Assembly (NCBI GenBank): GCA_028690585.1
Contig: JAQVAZ010000001.1
Location: forward strand, 62,001 to 126,000
From: Candidatus Altimarinota bacterium
Lineage (GTDB): Bacteria > Patescibacteriota > Gracilibacteria > JAHISY01
Reading direction: 5' to 3'
Length of the DNA stretch: 64,000 bases
Position 1 is the first letter of the stretch. The number at the start of each line of letters is the position of its first letter. This document shows positions 41,320 through 53,123 of this stretch, piece after piece. A program made the translations under genes and the position numbers. The notes beneath the pieces were generated by a model. The model was not told the DNA's origin and made no database searches. It saw only the letters and a program-made list of their open reading frames with translations.

Positions 41320-42183
41320 TTACCCTCCGTATTTTTCACCTACTTCTCGCATTGCTTCTTCTAAACCTTTTTGAATCTTGCGCGCTTTTTCCTTATCAAT
41401 TTTTTGAGTTTTCTCATCCATATAAAGATATCTTCCTAATTCAATTTGGATAACATTTCTCTTGAATCTTTCGCTCAAAGGTAATCCATCGTTATATTCT
41501 TTTCCATATTTTGTAGTGATATATCCTCCTTTATAAGGTGTGTTGATATGCGGTTTAATACCGAGGTTTTTTTCTACTGCTGCAGCAAAAAATTCCATAA
41601 TCTCAGGATCGCAAGCAGTGCCATCTTTATCACCCAAACAAATTTCTGGAAATTTATCTTTTCTTTCACTATCTTCTGCTGGATTAGGTTTCAGCATGAG
41701 ATTGCCAGTATCATGCAAATCAAAAATAATTACCCTCTCGTTTTCAGTTTCTGCTTCTTCAATCGCTGCTTTTACCCTGCTGTGATATTCATCATAATAT
41801 CTCTCTAAGAGTGCTTCTTTTTCATTAGAAGTTAATTCTTCTTTCCAGATTGGCACTCCATTGAAATCTGTTTCGCGGAATAAATCCGCTGCATCTCTAG
41901 CGCGATTTGGATCTCCGATAGCCCTAGAAAAACCAGCGATAACTTTTTGCGATTTAGGAATATCCTTCGGGATTATTCTACGAGTTCTGAAATCCGAAAA
42001 GTTTCCCAGCAGTCTAAGAATATTTCCTCTCAAATCTGCTCTTAATTTTTCTCGGATTTTTATTTTTTCTCCTTCTCTAGTAGCAATTTCACGAGGAATA
42101 TAATAACTACCATGAGTAGCAAGCACTAATATATTTCTAGGGAATTCTCTTTCGGTTTCGATAGATTGATGTTGTTTTTCCAT
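41320..42183 (-). CDS. N-formylglutamate amidohydrolase-like protein
   Basis: The 287-aa protein shows the FGase pattern: VLATHGSYYIPREI near the N-terminus, GFSRAIGDPNRARD, and FDLHDTGN, whose histidines and acids bind zinc. The later VIQIELGRYLYMD fits the family too. Homologues release formate and glutamate in histidine breakdown, but no histidine-pathway gene is nearby and CPR bacteria usually lack it. The actual substrate is probably another N-acylated amino acid or peptide; this is inference. Confidence 0.75.
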   Translation of the reverse strand: MEKQHQSIETEREFPRNILVLATHGSYYIPREIATREGEKIKIREKLRADLRGNILRLLGNFSDFRTRRIIPKDIPKSQKVIAGFSRAIGDPNRARDAADLFRETDFNGVPIWKEELTSNEKEALLERYYDEYHSRVKAAIEEAETENERVIIFDLHDTGNLMLKPNPAEDSERKDKFPEICLGDKDGTACDPEIMEFFAAAVEKNLGIKPHINTPYKGGYITTKYGKEYNDGLPLSERFKRNVIQIELGRYLYMDEKTQKIDKEKARKIQKGLEEAMREVGEKYGG

Positions 42184-42222
42184 AAAAAATCTGCGTGTAT
42201 TATAACATAAAACACAGATTTC
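42184..42222 (-). promoter_or_regulatory. Promoter within an inverted repeat, FGase-like gene
   Basis: On the minus strand TATAAT lies between the arms AAATCTGTGT and ACACGCAGATTT. The arms could form an operator or a leader hairpin around the -10. Confidence 0.4.
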
Positions 42223-42272
42223 ACCAAATAGGCAGAAAAAATCTCCTAGGGCTTATAAGTAAGAAAATCGCG

Positions 42273-42689
42273 TTAATCCAACAGGTTTAATCCGATTTCC
42301 TCGCTGAATTTCCGATTTACTTCTCCATCGATAATATCAATCACACACTCTGCGGTTGCGCTGACAATCGCAAAATCCAGATGCCCGCCAAAGCAGTGAT
42401 GTTTATTATCCGCGAGATTCGCGTGGAGATGAAGATAAAGCTTTCCATCTAGTGTGGAGATATTTCCCATCAGCGGTGCAATCTCGAAATCCCCTTTCAA
42501 CTCCGTGGAGTGATATTTCTTCTCCGCAGTTTCAAATAATCCAATCGTTGCTTGATTCGTAGCTCCGATACCAGAAACCACTCCTAACTTAATTTGATTC
42601 TCCTCACACACTTTTTTGAGAATTTCTACAATCTCTTCACCTTTATCAATCCTGATTACGATTTTGTTTCCGAAGCGTTTGCTTTGCAT
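42273..42689 (-). CDS. PPC/DUF296 domain protein
   Basis: The 138-aa protein is a stand-alone plants-and-prokaryotes-conserved (PPC, DUF296) domain: VVSGIGATNQATIGLF, LHLHANLADNKHHCFGGHL and a C-terminal strand. The three His in HLHAN...HHCFGGH probably bind zinc, as in known structures. Bacterial members form trimers; their role is unclear, though DNA binding is often suggested. It lies immediately outside the left end of the mobile island. Confidence 0.85.
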   Translation of the reverse strand: MQSKRFGNKIVIRIDKGEEIVEILKKVCEENQIKLGVVSGIGATNQATIGLFETAEKKYHSTELKGDFEIAPLMGNISTLDGKLYLHLHANLADNKHHCFGGHLDFAIVSATAECVIDIIDGEVNRKFSEEIGLNLLD

Positions 42690-42731
42690 AGGTAGCTTTT
42701 TAAAAACGTTGGTGCGTTATTTTAAGTAGTT

Positions 42732-42904
42732 GGCGAGGGAGGATTGAAGTTAGCTTCAAAGTTATTCTACAATAAAATTTCTAAACCAATCGTCTGGAAA
42801 TCTTTTCTTAAATTAAAATTTTTTCTCTACAGCGGATATTCGCGCCTCCACACTCCCCACGCCAAAACCTGCCACCAAAGGTGGCAGAACTTGTCGTGGT
42901 GGGC
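42732..42904. repeat. Tandem unit 1 of left-end array (hairpin 42845-42912)
   Basis: A conserved ~100-base AT-rich segment (contains CTTAAATTAAAATTTTTTCT) is followed by a hairpin. CCTCC pairs with GGAGG and CCCCACG with CGTGGTGG; the inner stem TGCCACC/GGTGGCA has loop AAA. AACC and GAAC flank the inner stem. Confidence 0.75.
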
Positions 42905-43077
42905 GAGGGAGGATTGAAGCTAGCTTTTAGATTTACCTAAAACAAAATTCCTACACCAGTCGCCTGGAAATATTTTTCTTAAATTAAAATTTTTTCTCTA
43001 CAGCGGAGATTCGCGCCTCCACACTCCCCAGAAAAAAATAACCCCCGCCAAGACGGGGAACATTTTTTCTGGTGGGC
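42902..43077. repeat. Tandem unit 2 of left-end array (hairpin 43016-43085)
   Basis: Same layout as unit 1, but the middle stem is AGAAAAAAAT paired with ATTTTTTCT and the inner stem is CCCCG/CGGGG. The outer CCTCC/GGAGG stem is kept. The unit begins with a copy of the tRNA-Ile 3' end. Confidence 0.75.
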
Positions 43078-43255
43078 GAGGGAGGATTGAAGTTAGCTTT
43101 TAGATTTACCTAAAGCAAAATTCCTCCACTAGTCGCCTAGAAATCCTTTTCTTAAATTAAATTTTTTTCTCTACGAGGAAATTCTCACCACCCCACTCTC
43201 CACACAAAACCTCCACTCTTCGAGTGGAGAACTTGCGTGGTGAGAAGGGTGGTAG
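43075..43255. repeat. Tandem unit 3 of left-end array (hairpin 43187-43253)
   Basis: Same layout. The outer stem has changed to ACCACCC/GGGTGGT, the middle to CCACACAA/TTGCGTGG and the inner to TCCACTC/GAGTGGA with loop TTC. Changes occur on both sides of each stem, so pairing is kept. Confidence 0.75.
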
Positions 43256-43500: not shown

Positions 43501-44085
43501 ATGGGAAGATATTACTACGACAAAAAGGTAACAGTCGAAGACTGTAAAGGAATAAGTGTTTTCTTTCTAAAGAAACATGGGTATTTTTCTAACTTTTACC
43601 GATCTGGAACTTTGCGTTGGCTCAGGAATAGCGAGGAAACAGGGAATATTGGCATTTCAATAGATGCTGATAATCAATATCTGAGGGTGGAGTACATTTC
43701 CACAGATAGAGAGACTGGAGAAAAGAGGGAAAAGGATTATAAGATCAGGGTTACTAGCACTAGTTGTCATTTTGGTGGGTATAGATATTGGTTTTCGTGC
43801 TACTTTTGTAACAAACGAGTAGGCAAACTTTTTATTTATGGCAAAAATGATTTTGCTTGTCGGCATTGCTTGGATCTGAGTTATAAAATCAGAAATGCTG
43901 GTGGTTTTGAAAGAATGGTCGGCAAAATAGCTAACGCTGATGAGCTTGATGAAATGAGAGAAAATCTAAGAATCAAATACTATCGAGGAAAACCTACTAA
44001 GCGTTTTCAAAATTATCTTAAAAAGAGTGATGAATTCAAAAAGGCGATAGTCTTGGCGGAAAGAAGTTTAAGCGAATTATGGTAA
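43501..44085 (+). CDS. Zinc-ribbon protein of the mobile island
   Basis: The 194-aa protein has a beta-rich N-terminal half (GTLRWLRNSEETGNIGISID) and a zinc ribbon in the middle: FSCYFCNKRVGKL followed by FACRHCLDLSY (C-x2-C...C-x2-C, about residues 99-125). A basic helical C-terminus follows. I recognise this architecture from uncharacterised proteins that travel with serine-recombinase elements in many bacteria. It may bind DNA or RNA during transfer or integration, which is inference. Confidence 0.65.
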   Translation: MGRYYYDKKVTVEDCKGISVFFLKKHGYFSNFYRSGTLRWLRNSEETGNIGISIDADNQYLRVEYISTDRETGEKREKDYKIRVTSTSCHFGGYRYWFSCYFCNKRVGKLFIYGKNDFACRHCLDLSYKIRNAGGFERMVGKIANADELDEMRENLRIKYYRGKPTKRFQNYLKKSDEFKKAIVLAERSLSELW

Positions 44086-44883: not shown

Positions 44884-47397
44884 TTAACTCAAACTAGAAA
44901 AAGCTTCATTTATCCGTTGTTGCCAGTTTTGATCAGAGAAAACATCGTATCTCAGCGGTATAGTAGCAATCTTCAAACTATTCAAGTCTTCTCTCTGCTC
45001 AGCCAGCCGATTACAAAGCTCAAATACGCTTTCCTTATACTTAGTATCTTCGTTCATAAGGTGTAAGCCTTTAGTTTCTACAACATGGATATTTTCAACA
45101 CGCTTACCATCTTTTGAAAGTGTAAAAATAAAGTCAGGATAAATCTTGTGCTTCTTCCAGCCTTGCAAGGCATAATTTTGCCGAGCAGCATTACGAAACC
45201 AAAACAACAGCCGATCTTGCCCTTCAAGATAGCTCACGAATTCCTTTTCTAGCCCATTGAGAGACTCTTCTGGTATGAAATCCAGCAAACTTTTCTCACT
45301 TGGATGAAATGCGGATACTACTTCTTTAAATTTTTGTTCATGGGGAAATTGAAAACCACTTACAACCACAAAGCGAATTGTGTCATTCTTAATTAGCTTA
45401 TAGAAAATTCCTTCAATCAAACGATCTTTTTCACTCTGTAGATGCTTTTTGCTTTCTTCTTGGATGAAAATGAAATTATTGGCAACAAGTTTCTCGCCAT
45501 GCTTTTTGATCAATCTTTCGATTACTGTATTTCCAAAATCGTATGCGATCCATGGATTTGGCACAATCTCAATAAGATGGCGCGTAAGTAAAACCGTGTC
45601 GATCTCTAGCCCGCCAGCCTTGAGTTGTTTACTTGATTTCTCCTCGATCAGCTCATCCTCATCTTTTGACCATGCAAACACCAACTCTTTATCCTTTTCT
45701 TCCGTTTCAGACAAAGAGAGATCAAAGAGCTTTGAAATATCAGCTTCCTCCCAATCAATTCGGCTTTCGAGATCAACGATGTAATCCACAGATTCCCACT
45801 TTCCATTACGCTCGACCATGAATAATGGAAGTGTGATTGTTTTTGCAACTGCTTGGAATTGCTCTCGCATTTGTGCCACTTTTACAGTTGTCGATTTAGT
45901 AGCAATCTGCCCATCGCTTACCACAATACTATTCACGAGATCACCAAGTCCTTCTTCTATCAATCCTTCGCGCACACTTCTTATGAGCTTATCCGCCTGT
46001 TGTTGATACACGAAAACATAACTCTCATCGAGTTCCGCTATACCAGTTTTCGCGCCAAATGGTTGCCGAAGAATACGCCCGACAAGTTGGGTAAGCGCAT
46101 TTTTGGAAGTTGGTTTCGTGAGAATGGTGAGAACATACGCAAAAGCGCAATCCCAGCCCTCCTGAAGCGCCTGCTTCGTGATTATGAAGCGAATCGGACA
46201 CTCAGGCGACATAAGCCCGCCAAGATCATCTACGGCTTTAAGCTCGTCTTTCTCGCTAGTTTTAATCGCGATTTGTTCTGGAGGAACGCCAGCCTTCTCG
46301 ATTAAATATTCTTTCACATCTTCCGAATGGATGAAGCCACTTCCACGCTGCTCTTTGCCAGTCCGCTCGGCTTGGATTAAACAAATCGGGCGAATGTAAT
46401 TACCTGTTTCGGCATCGTATTCCTCGGCTTTACTACGAAGCTGATTAAGTTTTTCAATGCTTGCGAGTATGGTATCGTGCCAGTTAGTGCTTGTTTTATT
46501 CGTGATATGCAGGTCAAGCTTTATCATTCCTTCATCATTCAAACTTTTACCAGAAACGGAAACGAGGATATTACTACCGATGGGTGGTGTAGCAGAAAGC
46601 TCAACGATAAGAGAGGGATTTAATCCAAGGAGTGTTTCTTGCGCGAGTTTCGAGTAAGCCTTTTGCCCCTCATCTAAGATAATCATCGGATTCAACACAC
46701 GCAAAACATTTCCAAGCGAGGTTTTGATCTGCTTACCCCAAAACCCATTTTGTTTAGATTGCTCCTTCTCCCCACCGAAATAATCCAAGTTTGGAAATCT
46801 CTCGAGTAGTTTTTGCTGCTCTACATGATTATCTTCTGGCGGAAAAAACTCGGCAAAAGCACCGCTATCTTTGAAAACCTTGAGGGTTTCTTTAGTCTGT
46901 CGATTCGCCGCAGGCAACATCATGAGCAGCACGCATAAGCTTTGCTCTACATCGTTGGGCGTGAAGCGATCGGTTTTTTCGAGAATGAGTGTGCGACCGC
47001 CTGTAATGGTATCAAGCACTTGCCGATAGTGATGCCCTCGATCGCGCAAGGCGCGGAGTGTTTGATTGTAAATTTGCGTCGTCGGCACAACCCACAACAC
47101 AAGCCCAGTGCTTCTCTGATAAAAAGTATCATTGGCGATGCCGAGAGTATGCACGGCAAGCAGTGTTTTGCCGCCGCCAGTCGGAATCCTTAAACAAAAA
47201 TTCGGCACATCTTCGTGGAGTGCGTTTTGTTTTTCTTGATAATGAATCAGCTCACCATCTTTTGTTTTTATACCAAAAGTATTCCACGCATCGAGACTAG
47301 CGTGTTTACGATTGCCATCCTTACGCTCACGAGCGACTGCCGTGAGGTAATCGCGAATGCGAGCGAGTGTCGTTTCTTGATAGTGTTTGAGGTGCAT
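44884..47397 (-). CDS. Type III restriction enzyme, Res (helicase-nuclease) subunit
   Basis: The 837-aa protein has the superfamily 2 helicase core with Walker A TGGGKT (73-78), the DEAD-box equivalent ILDEGQKAYS and motif VI QLVGRILRQPFG. A C-terminal PD-(D/E)xK nuclease region contains VVETKGLHL. Res translocates or scans after the Mod subunit recognises unmethylated sites and cuts nearby DNA. Its ATG overlaps the stop of the protease gene by one base (TAATG), so the two are translationally coupled. It is the last gene of the mod-protease-res operon. All catalytic motifs look intact. Confidence 0.88.
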   Translation of the reverse strand: MHLKHYQETTLARIRDYLTAVARERKDGNRKHASLDAWNTFGIKTKDGELIHYQEKQNALHEDVPNFCLRIPTGGGKTLLAVHTLGIANDTFYQRSTGLVLWVVPTTQIYNQTLRALRDRGHHYRQVLDTITGGRTLILEKTDRFTPNDVEQSLCVLLMMLPAANRQTKETLKVFKDSGAFAEFFPPEDNHVEQQKLLERFPNLDYFGGEKEQSKQNGFWGKQIKTSLGNVLRVLNPMIILDEGQKAYSKLAQETLLGLNPSLIVELSATPPIGSNILVSVSGKSLNDEGMIKLDLHITNKTSTNWHDTILASIEKLNQLRSKAEEYDAETGNYIRPICLIQAERTGKEQRGSGFIHSEDVKEYLIEKAGVPPEQIAIKTSEKDELKAVDDLGGLMSPECPIRFIITKQALQEGWDCAFAYVLTILTKPTSKNALTQLVGRILRQPFGAKTGIAELDESYVFVYQQQADKLIRSVREGLIEEGLGDLVNSIVVSDGQIATKSTTVKVAQMREQFQAVAKTITLPLFMVERNGKWESVDYIVDLESRIDWEEADISKLFDLSLSETEEKDKELVFAWSKDEDELIEEKSSKQLKAGGLEIDTVLLTRHLIEIVPNPWIAYDFGNTVIERLIKKHGEKLVANNFIFIQEESKKHLQSEKDRLIEGIFYKLIKNDTIRFVVVSGFQFPHEQKFKEVVSAFHPSEKSLLDFIPEESLNGLEKEFVSYLEGQDRLLFWFRNAARQNYALQGWKKHKIYPDFIFTLSKDGKRVENIHVVETKGLHLMNEDTKYKESVFELCNRLAEQREDLNSLKIATIPLRYDVFSDQNWQQRINEAFSSLS

Positions 47398-48077
47398 TAT
47401 TTTGATCTAATTTTTTCTAAAGCATCTTTTAAATAATCAACAGCAAACGCATATCCAACGCCGACAAATCTGTTGCGATTAAGGAAGAAAATAATTCTCC
47501 GCAATGTCTCTGGTAACCGAATTCCAAACATCTGAATATCTCCTTGTAAATTTGGAATTATCTGCAATAAAGCGGCAAGATCGGAATCAAATTTCGCCTC
47601 TGTTCGTGTGATGATTCCAATAACACGACCACATTGATCTAAAACTGGTCCGCCAGAATTTCCTTGATTTATAGGACCATCAATTTGCAGAGCCTTAACG
47701 CCATCAATATCAATTTTTCTTGAAGCCCAACCTTTATGAATGGATAATCTCGGAAGATCTAATCCCTGCCCTGCGAAAATCACATCGCTAAACTCTTCAA
47801 ATTTATCGTAGACAACAAGCTCAAAAAATTTTAATTCTTTGCTTGCATTGACTTTGAGTATCGCAAAATCTTTGGTCTCATCGAGCATCGAAACTTGTGC
47901 TTCGAGTTGAGATTGATCGTCAAATCTAACTATTATATTCGTACTAGTTTGATTATTCTGTCTGACAACATGAGCATTTGTTGCGATCAGACCATCGCTA
48001 GAAATAATAAAACCACTTCCGCGAGAATTAATATCTGAACAATGGACAGAAGCGACCTTTTCTAAAACTTTTTTCAT
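47397..48077 (-). CDS. Trypsin-like serine protease inside the restriction operon
   Basis: The 226-aa protein is a chymotrypsin-fold (Trypsin-2/DegP-like) protease domain with a complete triad: His36 (ATNAHVV), Asp70 (ETKDFAILK) and Ser141 (QGNSGGPV). It has neither signal peptide nor PDZ domain, so it probably acts in the cytoplasm. It starts 2 bases after the mod stop and ends overlapping the res start, so it is made as part of the restriction system. A protease in a type III restriction operon is not part of the classical system. It might be activated during phage attack; this is inference. Confidence 0.85.
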   Translation of the reverse strand: MKKVLEKVASVHCSDINSRGSGFIISSDGLIATNAHVVRQNNQTSTNIIVRFDDQSQLEAQVSMLDETKDFAILKVNASKELKFFELVVYDKFEEFSDVIFAGQGLDLPRLSIHKGWASRKIDIDGVKALQIDGPINQGNSGGPVLDQCGRVIGIITRTEAKFDSDLAALLQIIPNLQGDIQMFGIRLPETLRRIIFFLNRNRFVGVGYAFAVDYLKDALEKIRSK

Positions 48078-48079
48078 CT

Positions 48080-49750
48080 TTATTCAGTTAATTGATAAAT
48101 CTCAAACGGCAGCTGTGAGAAAACGATCTTTCTCTCGTCAAGCTGCCTTTGATTTAGAAATTTAGTTGGCGCAAAAACAAGCCGCTTCTTTTCCTTCGGC
48201 TTGCCGAGCTTGTCTGCGAGAGTGAGATTGAAAGCGAGCGAGCGAAGCTTCGCAGAATCTGGCTCGTAAAAAAGATAAACCTCGTATTCGTGACTCTCAC
48301 CGATGAAATGCCGCTTCTCATTAAGAGTTTTTTCATTCCATTCCTCGCCAGTGGCGGTGTAGAAAACATACCGCGCTAACTCACTATAGCTCGGCAATCT
48401 TTTGCCATTCAGAATAGTTTTCATCTCAATCTCTTTGCCGAGATCAAAGTAGCTAAACGATCCGCCAAAACCTTTTCTCAGTTTCTCATCTTTCGCATTC
48501 GGTACACCACGCATCACTCGTCGCACACGCTCGGCGGTGATCGTGTCGGCATAATCCTCACACTCCACGAGAATAAACTTTCGATTGCCGCCGTCTTCTG
48601 CATTGAGGGCTAAAACAGCGTGAGCCGTCGTGCCTGAGCCAGCGAAGGAGTCGAGAATAATGGAATCTTTATCAGTAGAAAGTTGAATGATTTTTTTGAG
48701 AAGCGAAACTGGTTTTGGCGTATCGAAGAGATCTTCTGAGAAAATCGTTCTCATTTCATTTTTTGATGTTCTATTACTACCAACTTCTTGATGATTCCAT
48801 ATCGTTTCTATCGGCATAGCCTTTCTTTTGTCGGCATAGATTTTAAAATACGGATTCCATCCATTTTTACCGGAAATCCACTCAATTCTTTCAATCTCTG
48901 CCTCAATTTTCTTTTTACTCCAGCGCCAACACCCTTTTGCTCCACTAGATTCGAAAGGCAAAACTTTAGTTCCATCTGGTGCGATCAATGGATAAAACAA
49001 ACTTTCGCTTATGTTGCCACCCATCACGCGGAGCGGCTTTAGATAATAGACTCGTCCATTGGCATCTTTTTTGTTGTAGTGTTCAGGAATTTCTTCATCT
49101 ATGTAATTATTTGGAGCAAAAATATTTTTATTGTTTGTGTAAATAAGTATGTGATCATGTCTCACTGAAAATTTAGCATCCATTCTTGGACTATCTGATT
49201 TTTCCCAAATAACATTCGCTACAAAGTTCTCTTCACCAAAAACTTCATCCATCAGCATTCGCAGATGCGCCACTTCGTTGTCATCAATACTCACAAAAAT
49301 CGCTCCATCCTCACGCAGAAGATCGCGGAGTAGCTTCAGTCGCGGCATCATCATGCATAGCCATTTGTCGTGCCTCGTAAGATCTTCGCGATCCACAGTT
49401 TCCCCGAGCCACTCCTTATGCATTGGGCTATTTACCGCATCGTTGTATGCCCAGCCCTCGTTGCCAGTATTGTATGGCGGATCAATGTAAATACACTTCA
49501 CTTTTCCAGCGTAAGTCGGAAGCAAAGCCTTCAACGCTTTCAAATTATCGCCGTGAAGAATGAGATTATCATGCAAGCTTGTTTTCGCCGTGAGACTTTT
49601 TGACTTCTGTGGAATCAACTCACAATACGGCACACCGAGGTGATAGTTGGCGACAAACTGCTTACCTTTGAATTGTAGGGAGGGCACAGGAGGAGAAGCA
49701 AAGATCAGATTGCCCTCAGCCCTCAAACGAAAAGTGGGGCAACCCAGCAA
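48080..49750 (-). CDS. Type III DNA adenine methyltransferase (Mod subunit)
   Basis: The 556-aa protein is a beta-class N6-adenine methyltransferase: DPPYNTG (90-96) precedes the SAM-binding DSFAGSGTTAHAV in the C-terminal half. The surrounding LHGDNLKALKALLPTYAGKVK is typical of Mod proteins. Mod recognises the target site and, with Res, forms the restriction complex. The start is uncertain. The reading frame opens at TTG 49750, but the first ~35 residues look unlike other Mod proteins, and a GTG at 49687 is possible. It heads the operon and is divergent from the 50043 gene. Confidence 0.87.
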   Translation of the reverse strand: MLGCPTFRLRAEGNLIFASPPVPSLQFKGKQFVANYHLGVPYCELIPQKSKSLTAKTSLHDNLILHGDNLKALKALLPTYAGKVKCIYIDPPYNTGNEGWAYNDAVNSPMHKEWLGETVDREDLTRHDKWLCMMMPRLKLLRDLLREDGAIFVSIDDNEVAHLRMLMDEVFGEENFVANVIWEKSDSPRMDAKFSVRHDHILIYTNNKNIFAPNNYIDEEIPEHYNKKDANGRVYYLKPLRVMGGNISESLFYPLIAPDGTKVLPFESSGAKGCWRWSKKKIEAEIERIEWISGKNGWNPYFKIYADKRKAMPIETIWNHQEVGSNRTSKNEMRTIFSEDLFDTPKPVSLLKKIIQLSTDKDSIILDSFAGSGTTAHAVLALNAEDGGNRKFILVECEDYADTITAERVRRVMRGVPNAKDEKLRKGFGGSFSYFDLGKEIEMKTILNGKRLPSYSELARYVFYTATGEEWNEKTLNEKRHFIGESHEYEVYLFYEPDSAKLRSLAFNLTLADKLGKPKEKKRLVFAPTKFLNQRQLDERKIVFSQLPFEIYQLTE

Positions 49751-50042: not shown

Positions 50043-51113
50043 ATGATTGATCAAAAACCTAATTGGGCGAATCCAAACAAACTGCTTCTTGCTTGGTATT
50101 TACTGCAAATAGCAAAAGAAAAATCAGAGAAAAAATCTAAATTTGGGAAAGATTTTATCCGAGATTGTTTTCCAAATTTAACAACATACGAAATATTCAA
50201 GCTTTCAGATTTGGAAATGTTTCTGCGAGGTTTTATTAGAGATGGCTTGATTTCAGAAATGTATGAGGAGAGATTTATACATGACGAAAAGAAAGATGAA
50301 ACTGTCAGTAAGGGGGTTGAGCATATTACACTCGATAAAGTTAGCGACCTCTTTGATTTTAGCAGCATAGTTGGATCTGATATTTTTTCAATTGAATACG
50401 ATTTTAAAATCAATCACAAAAAAGTATTGAGTTTTATTAAGGATTATTTAGAAAAGTGGAAAAACGATAAGTTATTTTTGCCTGATATGAATTTCCCAAA
50501 AGCCGAAAAACAGCTCGAAAAAGTTGCAAAACATATTCACTATTTGTTGTGGAACTATTCTGTAGAAATGTTGCTGGTTGATGAGCCATATTCTTCCGAA
50601 AAAATAGACTTTATTGCAGGCATGCTTTTTCTGGAGAGTATTGGTGATATCGAAATATTAAAACTTGATGTAAAAAAGAAAGATAAACTTTTCGGCGGAC
50701 AAGAAATGGCTTTACGGGTTAACGTAAAGGATAAATTCTTCCAAGATTTCAAAGATGACCAGATTAGGCTTAATTTTGATTTTGAAAAATTAAAAAAAGG
50801 AGAAAAAGAAGAAATCCTAGACAAGATAACTTTCCATCCACCAAAACTACTGAGATTCAAAAATATCGAGTATGAGATAAAAGAGGGATGTATCCCTCAA
50901 ACTCTACTAAAGCTTGCTGCTAGTAAAAAAAGCAAAGCGATTCTTTCTAAGGAGTTGGAGGATGTTACGGAAGGAGGAAAAAAAGTAATTAAGAAAGCAC
51001 TCAATAATTTCCGCAGAAACCTCAGAAAAAAGTTTAGCTTCCCAAGTAATGAGCTTTTCTTTGAAGTGAAAGCGGGTGAAATTAGATTTAAAGACGATCT
51101 ATTTCAGTTCTAG
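50043..51113 (+). CDS. Hypothetical island protein with C-terminal winged-helix-like domain
   Basis: The 356-aa protein is AT-rich in codon use and lysine-rich. The N-terminal part (LLLAWYLLQIAKEK, then FLRGFIRDGLISE) is helical. The last 90 residues (CIPQTLLKLAASKKSKAILSKELEDV, then KKALNNFRRNLRKKF and two beta strands) have the helix-helix-wing order of OmpR-type winged helices. It could be a regulator of the divergent restriction operon or a separate defence effector. No family recognised with confidence. Confidence 0.55.
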   Translation: MIDQKPNWANPNKLLLAWYLLQIAKEKSEKKSKFGKDFIRDCFPNLTTYEIFKLSDLEMFLRGFIRDGLISEMYEERFIHDEKKDETVSKGVEHITLDKVSDLFDFSSIVGSDIFSIEYDFKINHKKVLSFIKDYLEKWKNDKLFLPDMNFPKAEKQLEKVAKHIHYLLWNYSVEMLLVDEPYSSEKIDFIAGMLFLESIGDIEILKLDVKKKDKLFGGQEMALRVNVKDKFFQDFKDDQIRLNFDFEKLKKGEKEEILDKITFHPPKLLRFKNIEYEIKEGCIPQTLLKLAASKKSKAILSKELEDVTEGGKKVIKKALNNFRRNLRKKFSFPSNELFFEVKAGEIRFKDDLFQF

Positions 51114-51394: not shown

Positions 51395-53068
51395 ATGAAC
51401 AGTTTCGGTAACAGTACGGAGAGCAAGAGAAGGGTGGCTATCTATATTCGTGTATCTACCGTAGAACAAAAGATTGATGGATATGGGTTAGAAGCTCAAG
51501 AAAAGAAGTTGCTTGATTATGTGAATCAAAACACAATGCTTGGCTTAGAGACTAAGCGAGAGTGGATTTATAAAGATGTTCACACTGGTAGTGATTTTAT
51601 GCGTCCAAAGCTTCAGGAGCTACTAGCAGATGTTAAACAGGGTAAGTTTGATGCGGTGTTGGTTTGGAAGATAGATCGTCTTTCGAGATCATTGAAGCAC
51701 TTATTGAGTATCTTTGAGACTTTTGAAAAGAATCAAGTTAGCTTTGTTTCAGTTCAAGAAAACATTGATTTTCGTGGAGCAATCGGCAAATTGATTTTTC
51801 AGATCTTCGGAGCAATCGCACAATTTGAAAGAGAGTTGATTAAGGGTAGAACCCAAATGGGAAGGCTAACTTCTGCTGAACTTGGAAATTATATCGGAAC
51901 TCATATTCCCTATGGATACAAACCAGTCGCTAATCCAAACGGAAAAGGTAAGAAGCTAGAAATCATTCCAAAGGAAAAGAAACAAGTTGAGGAAATCTTC
52001 AATTGGTATATCTACGAAGAACTAGGTGATGGTCAAATAGCCAAGAGACTGAATGAATTGAGAGTTCCAAAAGGAGAACATACGAAAGCTAAAGATATGT
52101 ATTCATCATGGACTGCAAAAGTTGTTTCAAAGATTATTGAGAATTCGCTTTATAGAGGTGAGTGTGTAGCAAACAGAAAAGACGAAAATGGTGGTGAGCT
52201 GCTAGAAAAAGATTGGACTGTTGTTAGTATTCCTCCATGTGTTTCCGAATTTACTTTTTATCAAGCTCAAAATGCTCGTAGAAGTCGCGTAGGAGGTAGG
52301 AGAAATACAGATTATCTACTTACTGGGAAGCTCGTAGATATGACGCTAGAGACTCCTAAGAAGTTTAGTGGAGCAAAAAGGCACAAAGGAGGATTCAGCT
52401 ATCGCCGAAAGCAATTCCAAAAAGCTGGCAATCATTATCCTGTGTTTGAGATAGCTGGGAAGCAGATGGAAGATTGGGTTTGGGAAAAGATAATGAAGGC
52501 GATGAAAAATCCTGAGATTTTTATCAAACATTATCTTTCAAAGAAATACAGTGATCCTACAAGAATTCAGAAAATCGAAGATAATTTAAATAATCTTCGA
52601 GAAAGAAAAGTAAATGAGGAGATCGCGATCGGTCGGATTGAAGAAGCTTTTGAAAAAGGCACTTATAGCGAAGAGAAGCTTCAAGAAAAAACTGCCAGTA
52701 AAAATAAAGAAATTGCTGATATTGATCAGAAGATTATAAAGCTAGAAGAAGAGCTGGGAATCTTGAGTTCAATAAGTGTTGAGGTTCAGAAACTTAAATC
52801 TGCTTCTGAGCAGGTGAAATATCGATTAGATAAGTTGCCTCATAAACAGAAAAAGATTCTTTGTGATTTGTTTGTGGAGAAAATTGAAATGAGGCGGGAG
52901 AAGGTTGGAAAGAAGTGGAAAATCCAAGCTGATGTATTTTTTCGTTTCAACCCTGATAAGTTCTCTGAACCAGCAGAAGTGGGTAGAACCCAAAAACTCG
53001 ATAATAAAAGTGCGACAGAATCAAAGCATCCCAAAAAGGGATTTGATGGTGGGCGAGGGAGGACTTGA
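51395..53068 (+). CDS. Large serine recombinase (island integrase)
   Basis: The 557-aa protein has the resolvase catalytic domain with Ser21 in YIRVST, DRLSRS and the ELIKGRTQMGR helix, then the recombinase domain (to about residue 300). The position of the usual zinc beta-ribbon lacks its cysteine pairs (YLLTGKLVDMTLETPKKFSG). A long coiled coil follows at about 395-480. The last codons (GGRGRT and stop) are read from the tRNA-Ile 3' end, so the gene end is formed by the attachment site. It would insert and excise the island. Confidence 0.9.
   Translation: MNSFGNSTESKRRVAIYIRVSTVEQKIDGYGLEAQEKKLLDYVNQNTMLGLETKREWIYKDVHTGSDFMRPKLQELLADVKQGKFDAVLVWKIDRLSRSLKHLLSIFETFEKNQVSFVSVQENIDFRGAIGKLIFQIFGAIAQFERELIKGRTQMGRLTSAELGNYIGTHIPYGYKPVANPNGKGKKLEIIPKEKKQVEEIFNWYIYEELGDGQIAKRLNELRVPKGEHTKAKDMYSSWTAKVVSKIIENSLYRGECVANRKDENGGELLEKDWTVVSIPPCVSEFTFYQAQNARRSRVGGRRNTDYLLTGKLVDMTLETPKKFSGAKRHKGGFSYRRKQFQKAGNHYPVFEIAGKQMEDWVWEKIMKAMKNPEIFIKHYLSKKYSDPTRIQKIEDNLNNLRERKVNEEIAIGRIEEAFEKGTYSEEKLQEKTASKNKEIADIDQKIIKLEEELGILSSISVEVQKLKSASEQVKYRLDKLPHKQKKILCDLFVEKIEMRREKVGKKWKIQADVFFRFNPDKFSEPAEVGRTQKLDNKSATESKHPKKGFDGGRGRT
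53028..53065. other. Right attachment site region (attR)
   Basis: A small hairpin ATCCC/GGGAT (53028-53042) is followed by GGTGGGCGAGGGAGGA, the tRNA-Ile 3' end. The arrangement of a hairpin directly before this sequence mirrors each unit of the left-end array. Confidence 0.55.
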
Positions 53069-53123
53069 ACCTCCGACCTCAACATTATCAGTGTTGCGCT
53101 CTAACCAACTGAGCTACTCGCCC
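53047..53123 (-). tRNA. tRNA-Ile (GAU)
   Basis: The 77-nt cloverleaf on the minus strand has acceptor GGGCGAG/CTCGCCC, D-loop AGTTGGTTA, anticodon GAT in loop CTGATAA, T-arm GGTTCAAGTCC and encoded CCA. Its 3' end overlaps the last 22 bases of the recombinase gene on the other strand and is the integration target. Confidence 0.95.

Follow-up and report, generated by a model that had tools for sequence, protein, structure and literature searches.

It is known from type I restriction-modification (R-M) systems and from Hma systems that one defence gene can lie embedded inside another. Among the type I cases, PrrC is a second-line effector embedded in the operon EcoprrI (PMC12707154, PMC3710099), and two independent defence modules have been described: DarTG2, which lies between hsdS and hsdR (PMC12255303), and TgvAB, which is embedded in a type I system within VPI-2 (PMC11411939). 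The hsdS/hsdR position has been described as a potential hotspot (PMC12255303, PMC11411939, PMC3710099, PMC12707154), and embedding inside defence operons is by now an established idea, for which a preprint by Payne and colleagues is cited in PMC12255303 and PMC11411939. Type III systems with an extra gene for a helicase-like ATPase 5' of mod have been found in more than 500 genomes (PMC8259958), and in LypABC (CARD-NLR, LypA/LypC) a trypsin-like protease activity is essential (PMC13236601). Here we describe, in a 64,000-nucleotide stretch of contig JAQVAZ010000001.1 from a Candidatus Altimarinota bacterium (the window), a type III operon in which a gene for a trypsin-like serine protease stands between mod and res. 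We favour, with moderate confidence, the reading that in a widespread type III family the mod/res junction is a recurrent slot for cargo, and that this protease is one of its guests, most likely a second-line defence gene. While embedding as such is known from type I systems, the type III mod/res slot and the protease guest appear to be the new part, since the literature searched, which left most subscription papers aside, held no report of a type III mod/res junction as slot, nor of a protease as its guest.

The mod-protease-res operon

The operon consists of three co-oriented open reading frames (ORFs) read on the minus strand in the order mod, protease gene, res. Coordinates are positions in the window, and numbers beginning with L designate the loci compared.

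48080-49687, minus strand: mod, type III beta-class DNA methyltransferase, 535 amino acids (Pfam N6_N4_Mtase 2.1e-40; PADLOC MTase_III 5.5e-157)
47397-48077, minus strand: guest gene, stand-alone trypsin-like (HtrA catalytic domain) serine protease, 226 amino acids (Pfam Trypsin_2 6.9e-24)
47397-47399, minus strand: stop codon of the protease gene, its last base (47397) being the first base of the res ATG, as read in the sequence
44884-47397, minus strand: res, type III restriction helicase-nuclease, 837 amino acids (Pfam ResIII 2.4e-9; PADLOC REase_III 1.1e-162)

The original prediction, made from the sequence of the window, had placed a protease gene between mod and res with a 2-base gap on one side and a 1-base start-stop overlap on the other, and all of this was confirmed: the two bases AG separate the mod TAA (stop at 48080) from the protease ATG, and in the TAATG overlap base 47397 is common to the protease TAA and the res ATG. 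As for the extent given to the operon, 44884-49750, the three ORFs are real and the upper limit should probably be moved, because the ORF of mod reaches back to a TTG at 49750 while homologous Mods align from its residue 22, which makes the GTG at 49687 the most likely start.

Both enzyme subunits look intact. The Mod translation holds the DPPY and FAGSGTT motifs of a beta-class methyltransferase, and Res has the motifs of an SF2 helicase together with the PDF...ETK motif of a PD-(D/E)XK nuclease, with PTGGGKT, DE, SAT, GR..RQP and D755/E774/K776 invariant in the alignment (A1). NCBIfam, like Pfam and PADLOC, identifies Mod, Res and the trypsin-like domain. The usual, non-defining trait of type III systems, that res directly follows mod, is missing here, as a 226-amino-acid gene intervenes; this is the variation at issue and no ground to exclude the operon from type III. 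An extra gene that is co-oriented with, and coupled to, the genes of an R-M operon is also the layout of embedded effectors. Since the genome is a draft assembly of 48 contigs, one could suspect an assembly chimera, a frameshift or a dead gene, an explanation to which we give next to no credence: the ORFs run uninterrupted on a single contig, the genome is listed with 98.7% completeness and 0.2% contamination, the stop/start coupling is clean, all catalytic residues are kept and the ends of the island that carries the operon are matched by attachment repeats.

The protease begins directly with the catalytic domain. Its triad H36-D70-S141 was verified by position and is invariant across 18-19 aligned relatives, and neither a signal peptide nor a transmembrane stretch is visible in its sequence, so that the complete His36-Asp70-Ser141 triad and the missing signal peptide of the original prediction both stand. 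It has no PDZ domain, its Pfam matches being to trypsin and peptidase families only. The AlphaFold2 model presents a two-barrel trypsin fold with an overall predicted local distance difference test (pLDDT) of 82.7, mostly 86-96 over residues 1-160, followed by a helical insert of low confidence (163-201) and a last strand (207-212). The best fold matches of this model in the PDB are the protease domains of MucD, HTRA1 and DegS, and sequence search also places the protein nearest to HtrA catalytic domains. Its own genome contains no other match at E<=0.001, hence the protease is not a copy of a resident HtrA, and no close match exists in the other genomes among 242 of the same class. In the same phylum its relatives are mostly HtrA proteins carrying N-terminal extensions; viral scans returned no close relative with a single-sequence query, and with an alignment query only HtrA-like proteins with N-terminal extensions. 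Among the relatives found, the stand-alone layout and the helical insert are common only to L217 and the plasmid locus L219. The nearest stand-alone relative, in L217, belongs to the same phylum, has 244 amino acids and shares about 34-37% identity; it adjoins a small unknown protein, with a large serine recombinase 1.6 kb away and no R-M genes in this neighbourhood (L217:9528-13603). The other one, from a cyanobacterial plasmid, has a tyrosine recombinase and DUF5615, DUF433 and ImmA/IrrE genes as neighbours. From these few cases, the stand-alone protease subfamily looks like cargo of mobile elements.

Guests of the mod/res junction

A same-phylum search, a scan of 84,980 species genomes and a viral scan yielded, with the window, 122 loci with a visible mod/res junction. 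They were chosen by similarity to the Res of the window, so the fraction with an insert is valid for this Res family and not for all type III systems. The distance from mod stop to res start is bimodal, with 97 loci at -10 to 102 bp, 25 at 313-2335 bp and none between. An insert is present in 19/76 loci of the genome scan, in 4/11 from the same phylum, in 1/34 viral loci (some of which are near-duplicates) and in the window. Genes of the inserts are co-oriented with mod and res in 24 of the 25, compared with 149 of 209 outer neighbours (p about 0.002). Coupling on both sides is frequent among the guests, longer gaps being found in L038, L062, L117 and L131.

The list of guests, which were assigned by Pfam and PADLOC and whose functions thus rest on family names, is rich in predicted toxin and defence families. 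HEPN and MNT nucleotidyltransferase guests occur in L114, L122, L126 and L130 (with a weak HEPN match in L041), SLFN_AlbA_2 proteins in L038 and L052, and toxin-antitoxin-like pairs with PIN domains in L053 and L104. One junction (L102:5716-7969) harbours both a DRT-type reverse transcriptase (RT), UG21-like, and a PemK/MazF-like toxin, and another a GajB-like UvrD helicase (L035). Other guests are PDDEXK_3 (L062, L106), DUF3800 (L108, L131), ORF6N (L117) and PRiA4_ORF3 (L120) proteins, and several match PADLOC candidate families. Small membrane proteins without a Pfam family were recognised by eye in four loci (L033:13234-13794, L052:735-1208, L054:6686-7474, L161:7495-7791). Two Bacteroidota loci (L061:7259-8001, L074:3320-4167) share a pair of small proteins that belong to no described family, one of them containing 'EPIPYF..SINRNA', and the protein of L115:989-1381 resembles, by eye, the first of this pair. 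The insert of L056 was not retained among the guests, since the sense ORF in it looks spurious and the antisense ORF, which has no Pfam match, resembles by eye a REP-associated transposase.

Guests have been repeatedly and independently gained or lost, and exchanged. On a tree of 121 Res proteins the presence of a guest needs 15 changes, at least 14 of which are forced by well-supported branches; the tree is from FastTree only, and the changes do not separate gain from loss. Three operons whose res genes are 86-92% identical in DNA differ in the junction: L064 has no guest and an ATGA overlap, L061 has the unknown pair and L062 has PDDEXK_3. The alignment of L061 with L064 ends at the mod stop and restarts at the res ATG, and the guest of L061 meets res as TAATG, same as in the window. 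The original prediction had taken the spacing as implying a joint function of protease, Mod and Res, a claim that goes too far, because unrelated genes are coupled alike in this junction, down to the TAATG of L061; such spacing shows shared expression and not shared mechanism, and cannot by itself show that the guest is gated by Mod-Res.

A closer tie to Res is seen in three related loci, where an MNT-type nucleotidyltransferase (Polbeta) domain stands in frame on the N terminus of Res (L114:7398-10412, L126:2399-5434, L130:2414-5629). The fusion is a single ORF of about 1000 amino acids, and a HEPN (NTase_sub_bind) gene lies between mod and the fused gene in all three. Thus, the antitoxin-like half of a toxin-antitoxin pair would be joined to the restriction enzyme, possibly as a guard arrangement.

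The protease itself did not recur in the data searched. A search with the protease of the window gave no second mod-protease-res locus in the 121 other junctions, whose named guests include no further protease, and a chimeric query joining the protease to the N-terminal part of Res found no record covering both among 72,556 plasmids and 50,697 phages. With the 242 genomes of the same class included, the arrangement is a singleton, the very outcome that had been named beforehand as speaking against the original prediction. Because the protease has been seen at this position here only, the term "built-in" overstates its relation to the system, of which the gene is an exchangeable guest.

Three explanations other than second-line defence have to be weighed against these data. 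By the first, the protease would be passenger cargo with an unrelated role, or a selfish, addiction-type gene, in a slot that keeps the operon expressed and supplies promoter and ribosomes. The guests are indeed biochemically unrelated and differ from one near-identical operon to the next, the protease was met just once in the searched data, and some guests, like the pRiA4 ORF3 protein of L120, are hard to link to defence. However, toxin and defence families abound among the guests, which do not look like a random set of genes, a plain transposon look is seen in one insert only (L056), and, as the MNT-Res fusion shows, selection can favour integration with Res; we regard this explanation as doubtful, though a serious one.

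The second explanation is control of restriction: the protease would trim or degrade Res, or Mod-Res stalled on host DNA, and so limit self-damage during establishment of the island, like ClpXP does on type I HsdR. Its translation just ahead of Res, to which it is coupled, fits this proposal, as does the proteolytic alleviation of restriction that exists for type IA/IB enzymes (PMC12707154), and a mobile island would profit from it. Yet 97 of the 122 related operons are without such a gene and others carry unrelated ones, so the family does not need one; type III systems already delay the translation of Res (PMC12707154), and HtrA-type domains lack an unfoldase. Control of restriction is therefore rather improbable.

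Third, the operon could encode a dedicated three-subunit type III enzyme, in which the protease would be an obligate partner of Mod-Res that Res switches on when it meets unmodified DNA, making the system a protease counterpart of Craspase. The tight coupling on both sides would agree with this, and so would the clade in which a domain of another guest is fused to Res. It is very improbable all the same, as the protease occupies 1 of 122 junctions, Mod and Res have no known difference from their guest-free relatives, and the nearest relative of the Res of the window, its sister on the tree (L032, 54% identity), has no protease and no other guest.

The integrative island and its other genes

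The operon sits on an integrative island of about 10 kb bounded by 17-bp repeats of a tRNA-Ile gene. Besides the genes given above, the island and its borders include the following features.

53047-53123, minus strand: tRNA-Ile(GAT), integration site (ARAGORN), its 3' 17 bp (53047-53063) being one attachment repeat
43070-43086, no strand: second attachment repeat, exact 17-bp copy of the tRNA-Ile 3' end, at the far end of the island
42719-43167, no strand: tandem array of three units, each about 173 bp long and containing a copy of the tRNA-Ile 3' end, the third copy degenerate (near 42727)
51395-53068, plus strand: large serine recombinase, integrase of the island (Pfam Resolvase 7.3e-37, Recombinase 9.7e-15), its end overlapping the tRNA gene
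50043-51113, plus strand: 356-amino-acid protein divergent from mod, possible regulator, no Pfam match
43501-44085, plus strand: 194-amino-acid island protein with no assigned function, no Pfam or PADLOC match

From one end to the other, the island holds the 194-amino-acid ORF, res, the protease gene, mod, the divergent 356-amino-acid ORF and the recombinase gene. The 17-bp 3' end of the tRNA is repeated exactly at 43070-43086 and at 42897-42913, and the tandem units around these copies are traces of repeated integration at the same tRNA. In genomes of the same family (L244-L246), relA, tRNA-Ile and an MBL-fold gene adjoin without the island, while L247 and L248 differ in detail; five genomes of the same family have no Res match at E<=1e-40. 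With attachment repeats at both ends and the site empty in relatives, the mobile island of the original prediction is confirmed. Separately, two genes at 41320-42689 (FGase, PCC) lie between the MBL-fold gene and the tRNA, which are adjacent to each other in three sister genomes, and may be an older insertion.

The possible regulator that had also been proposed on the island gained some support. Among 362 genomes of the phylum, one other (L036) has a homologue of the 356-amino-acid protein, again divergent from a mod of the same type III family and without the protease; the protein is therefore a partner of the R-M operon and not of the protease, and may regulate the type III operon. Its structure model, with a pLDDT of 32, is unusable.

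Role of the protease and comparison with known systems

On the favoured reading, that of a guest serving as second-line defence, the mod transcript would yield the protease along with the R-M enzyme. Presumably held in check until infection, this intracellular trypsin-like protease would damage host or phage proteins once the first line fails, leading to abortive infection. An added defence or abortive layer, as the original prediction had put forward, thus remains the most probable role of the gene, and the part of anti-phage or toxic effector is assigned to it by analogy with other systems. Several points weigh against this reading. The lack of a second mod-protease-res locus means that no recurrence shows selection of the protease in the slot, and roughly half of the guests belong to no family with a recognised role in defence or as a toxin. 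A constantly active cytoplasmic protease would need a sensor or an inhibitor, and no such partner of the protease is visible; its toxicity or anti-phage activity is putative.

A tentative possibility, well below the favoured reading in our confidence, is that Mod-Res gates the protease directly, as a conditional effector in the manner of PrrC, with the R-M complex, or its inhibition by a phage, releasing a cytosolic protease that stops the infected cell. The protease may instead work independently, having only its expression in common with Mod and Res. If this were true, the junction would be a general docking slot, where different effectors (protease, HEPN/MNT, PIN, SLFN, membrane proteins) are placed under the same R-M sensor. 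Direct gating of guests by the R-M enzyme can be put to the test thanks to the near-identical operons differing only in their guest (L061, L062, L064) and to the MNT-Res fusion. If the slot reading holds, scanning the mod/res junction would be a simple route to new effectors, as the 24 guest loci include families without a known domain.

In its catalytic domain, fold and H-D-S triad the protease is like HtrA, DegP and DegS (S1C), from which it differs in that PDZ domain, signal peptide and membrane anchor are all missing and that a helical insert precedes the last strand. The same fold underlies its matches to proteases of defence systems in PADLOC, namely RT-Protease_XI (7e-22), LmuA of Lamassu (1.5e-10) and Avs1b (1.9e-7). 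These proteins, as well as LypA/LypC, have sensors, ATPases, SMC proteins or RT as fused parts or as products of accompanying genes, none of which is found here. Assignment to RT-Protease_XI was rejected, as the match covers profile positions 341-492 of 510 only and the protein has no RT domain; Lamassu, AVAST type 1 and CARD-NLR were rejected too, there being no SMC, STAND or NLR ATPase partner among the neighbours, which are mod, res, the 356-amino-acid ORF, the recombinase gene and the 194-amino-acid ORF. The PADLOC candidate PDC-M35A (216-amino-acid model) is likewise small and stands alone, and its N-terminal half is similar. The protease of the window matches it weakly and partially (2.3e-8, residues 3-100 only), and the matches of the stand-alone relatives of L217 and L219 cover most of the model. 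PDC-M35A had no match in 7 genomes and no strong member in 259 genomes of another phylum, where the control was also unmatched at that threshold, so that the latter result does not show absence.

Concerning the operon as a whole, type III systems with an ATPase gene 5' of mod (PMC8259958) resemble it in having a third closely linked gene in a mod-res operon; here the extra gene lies between mod and res, encodes a protease and was found once. The embedded effectors of type I systems (PrrC, DarTG2, TgvAB) are an anticodon nuclease, a toxin-antitoxin system and a type IV restriction system, whereas here the host is of type III and the guest is a predicted protease. What they and the protease would have in common is the arrangement itself, in which an R-M operon houses a second gene for defence that is expressed along with it.

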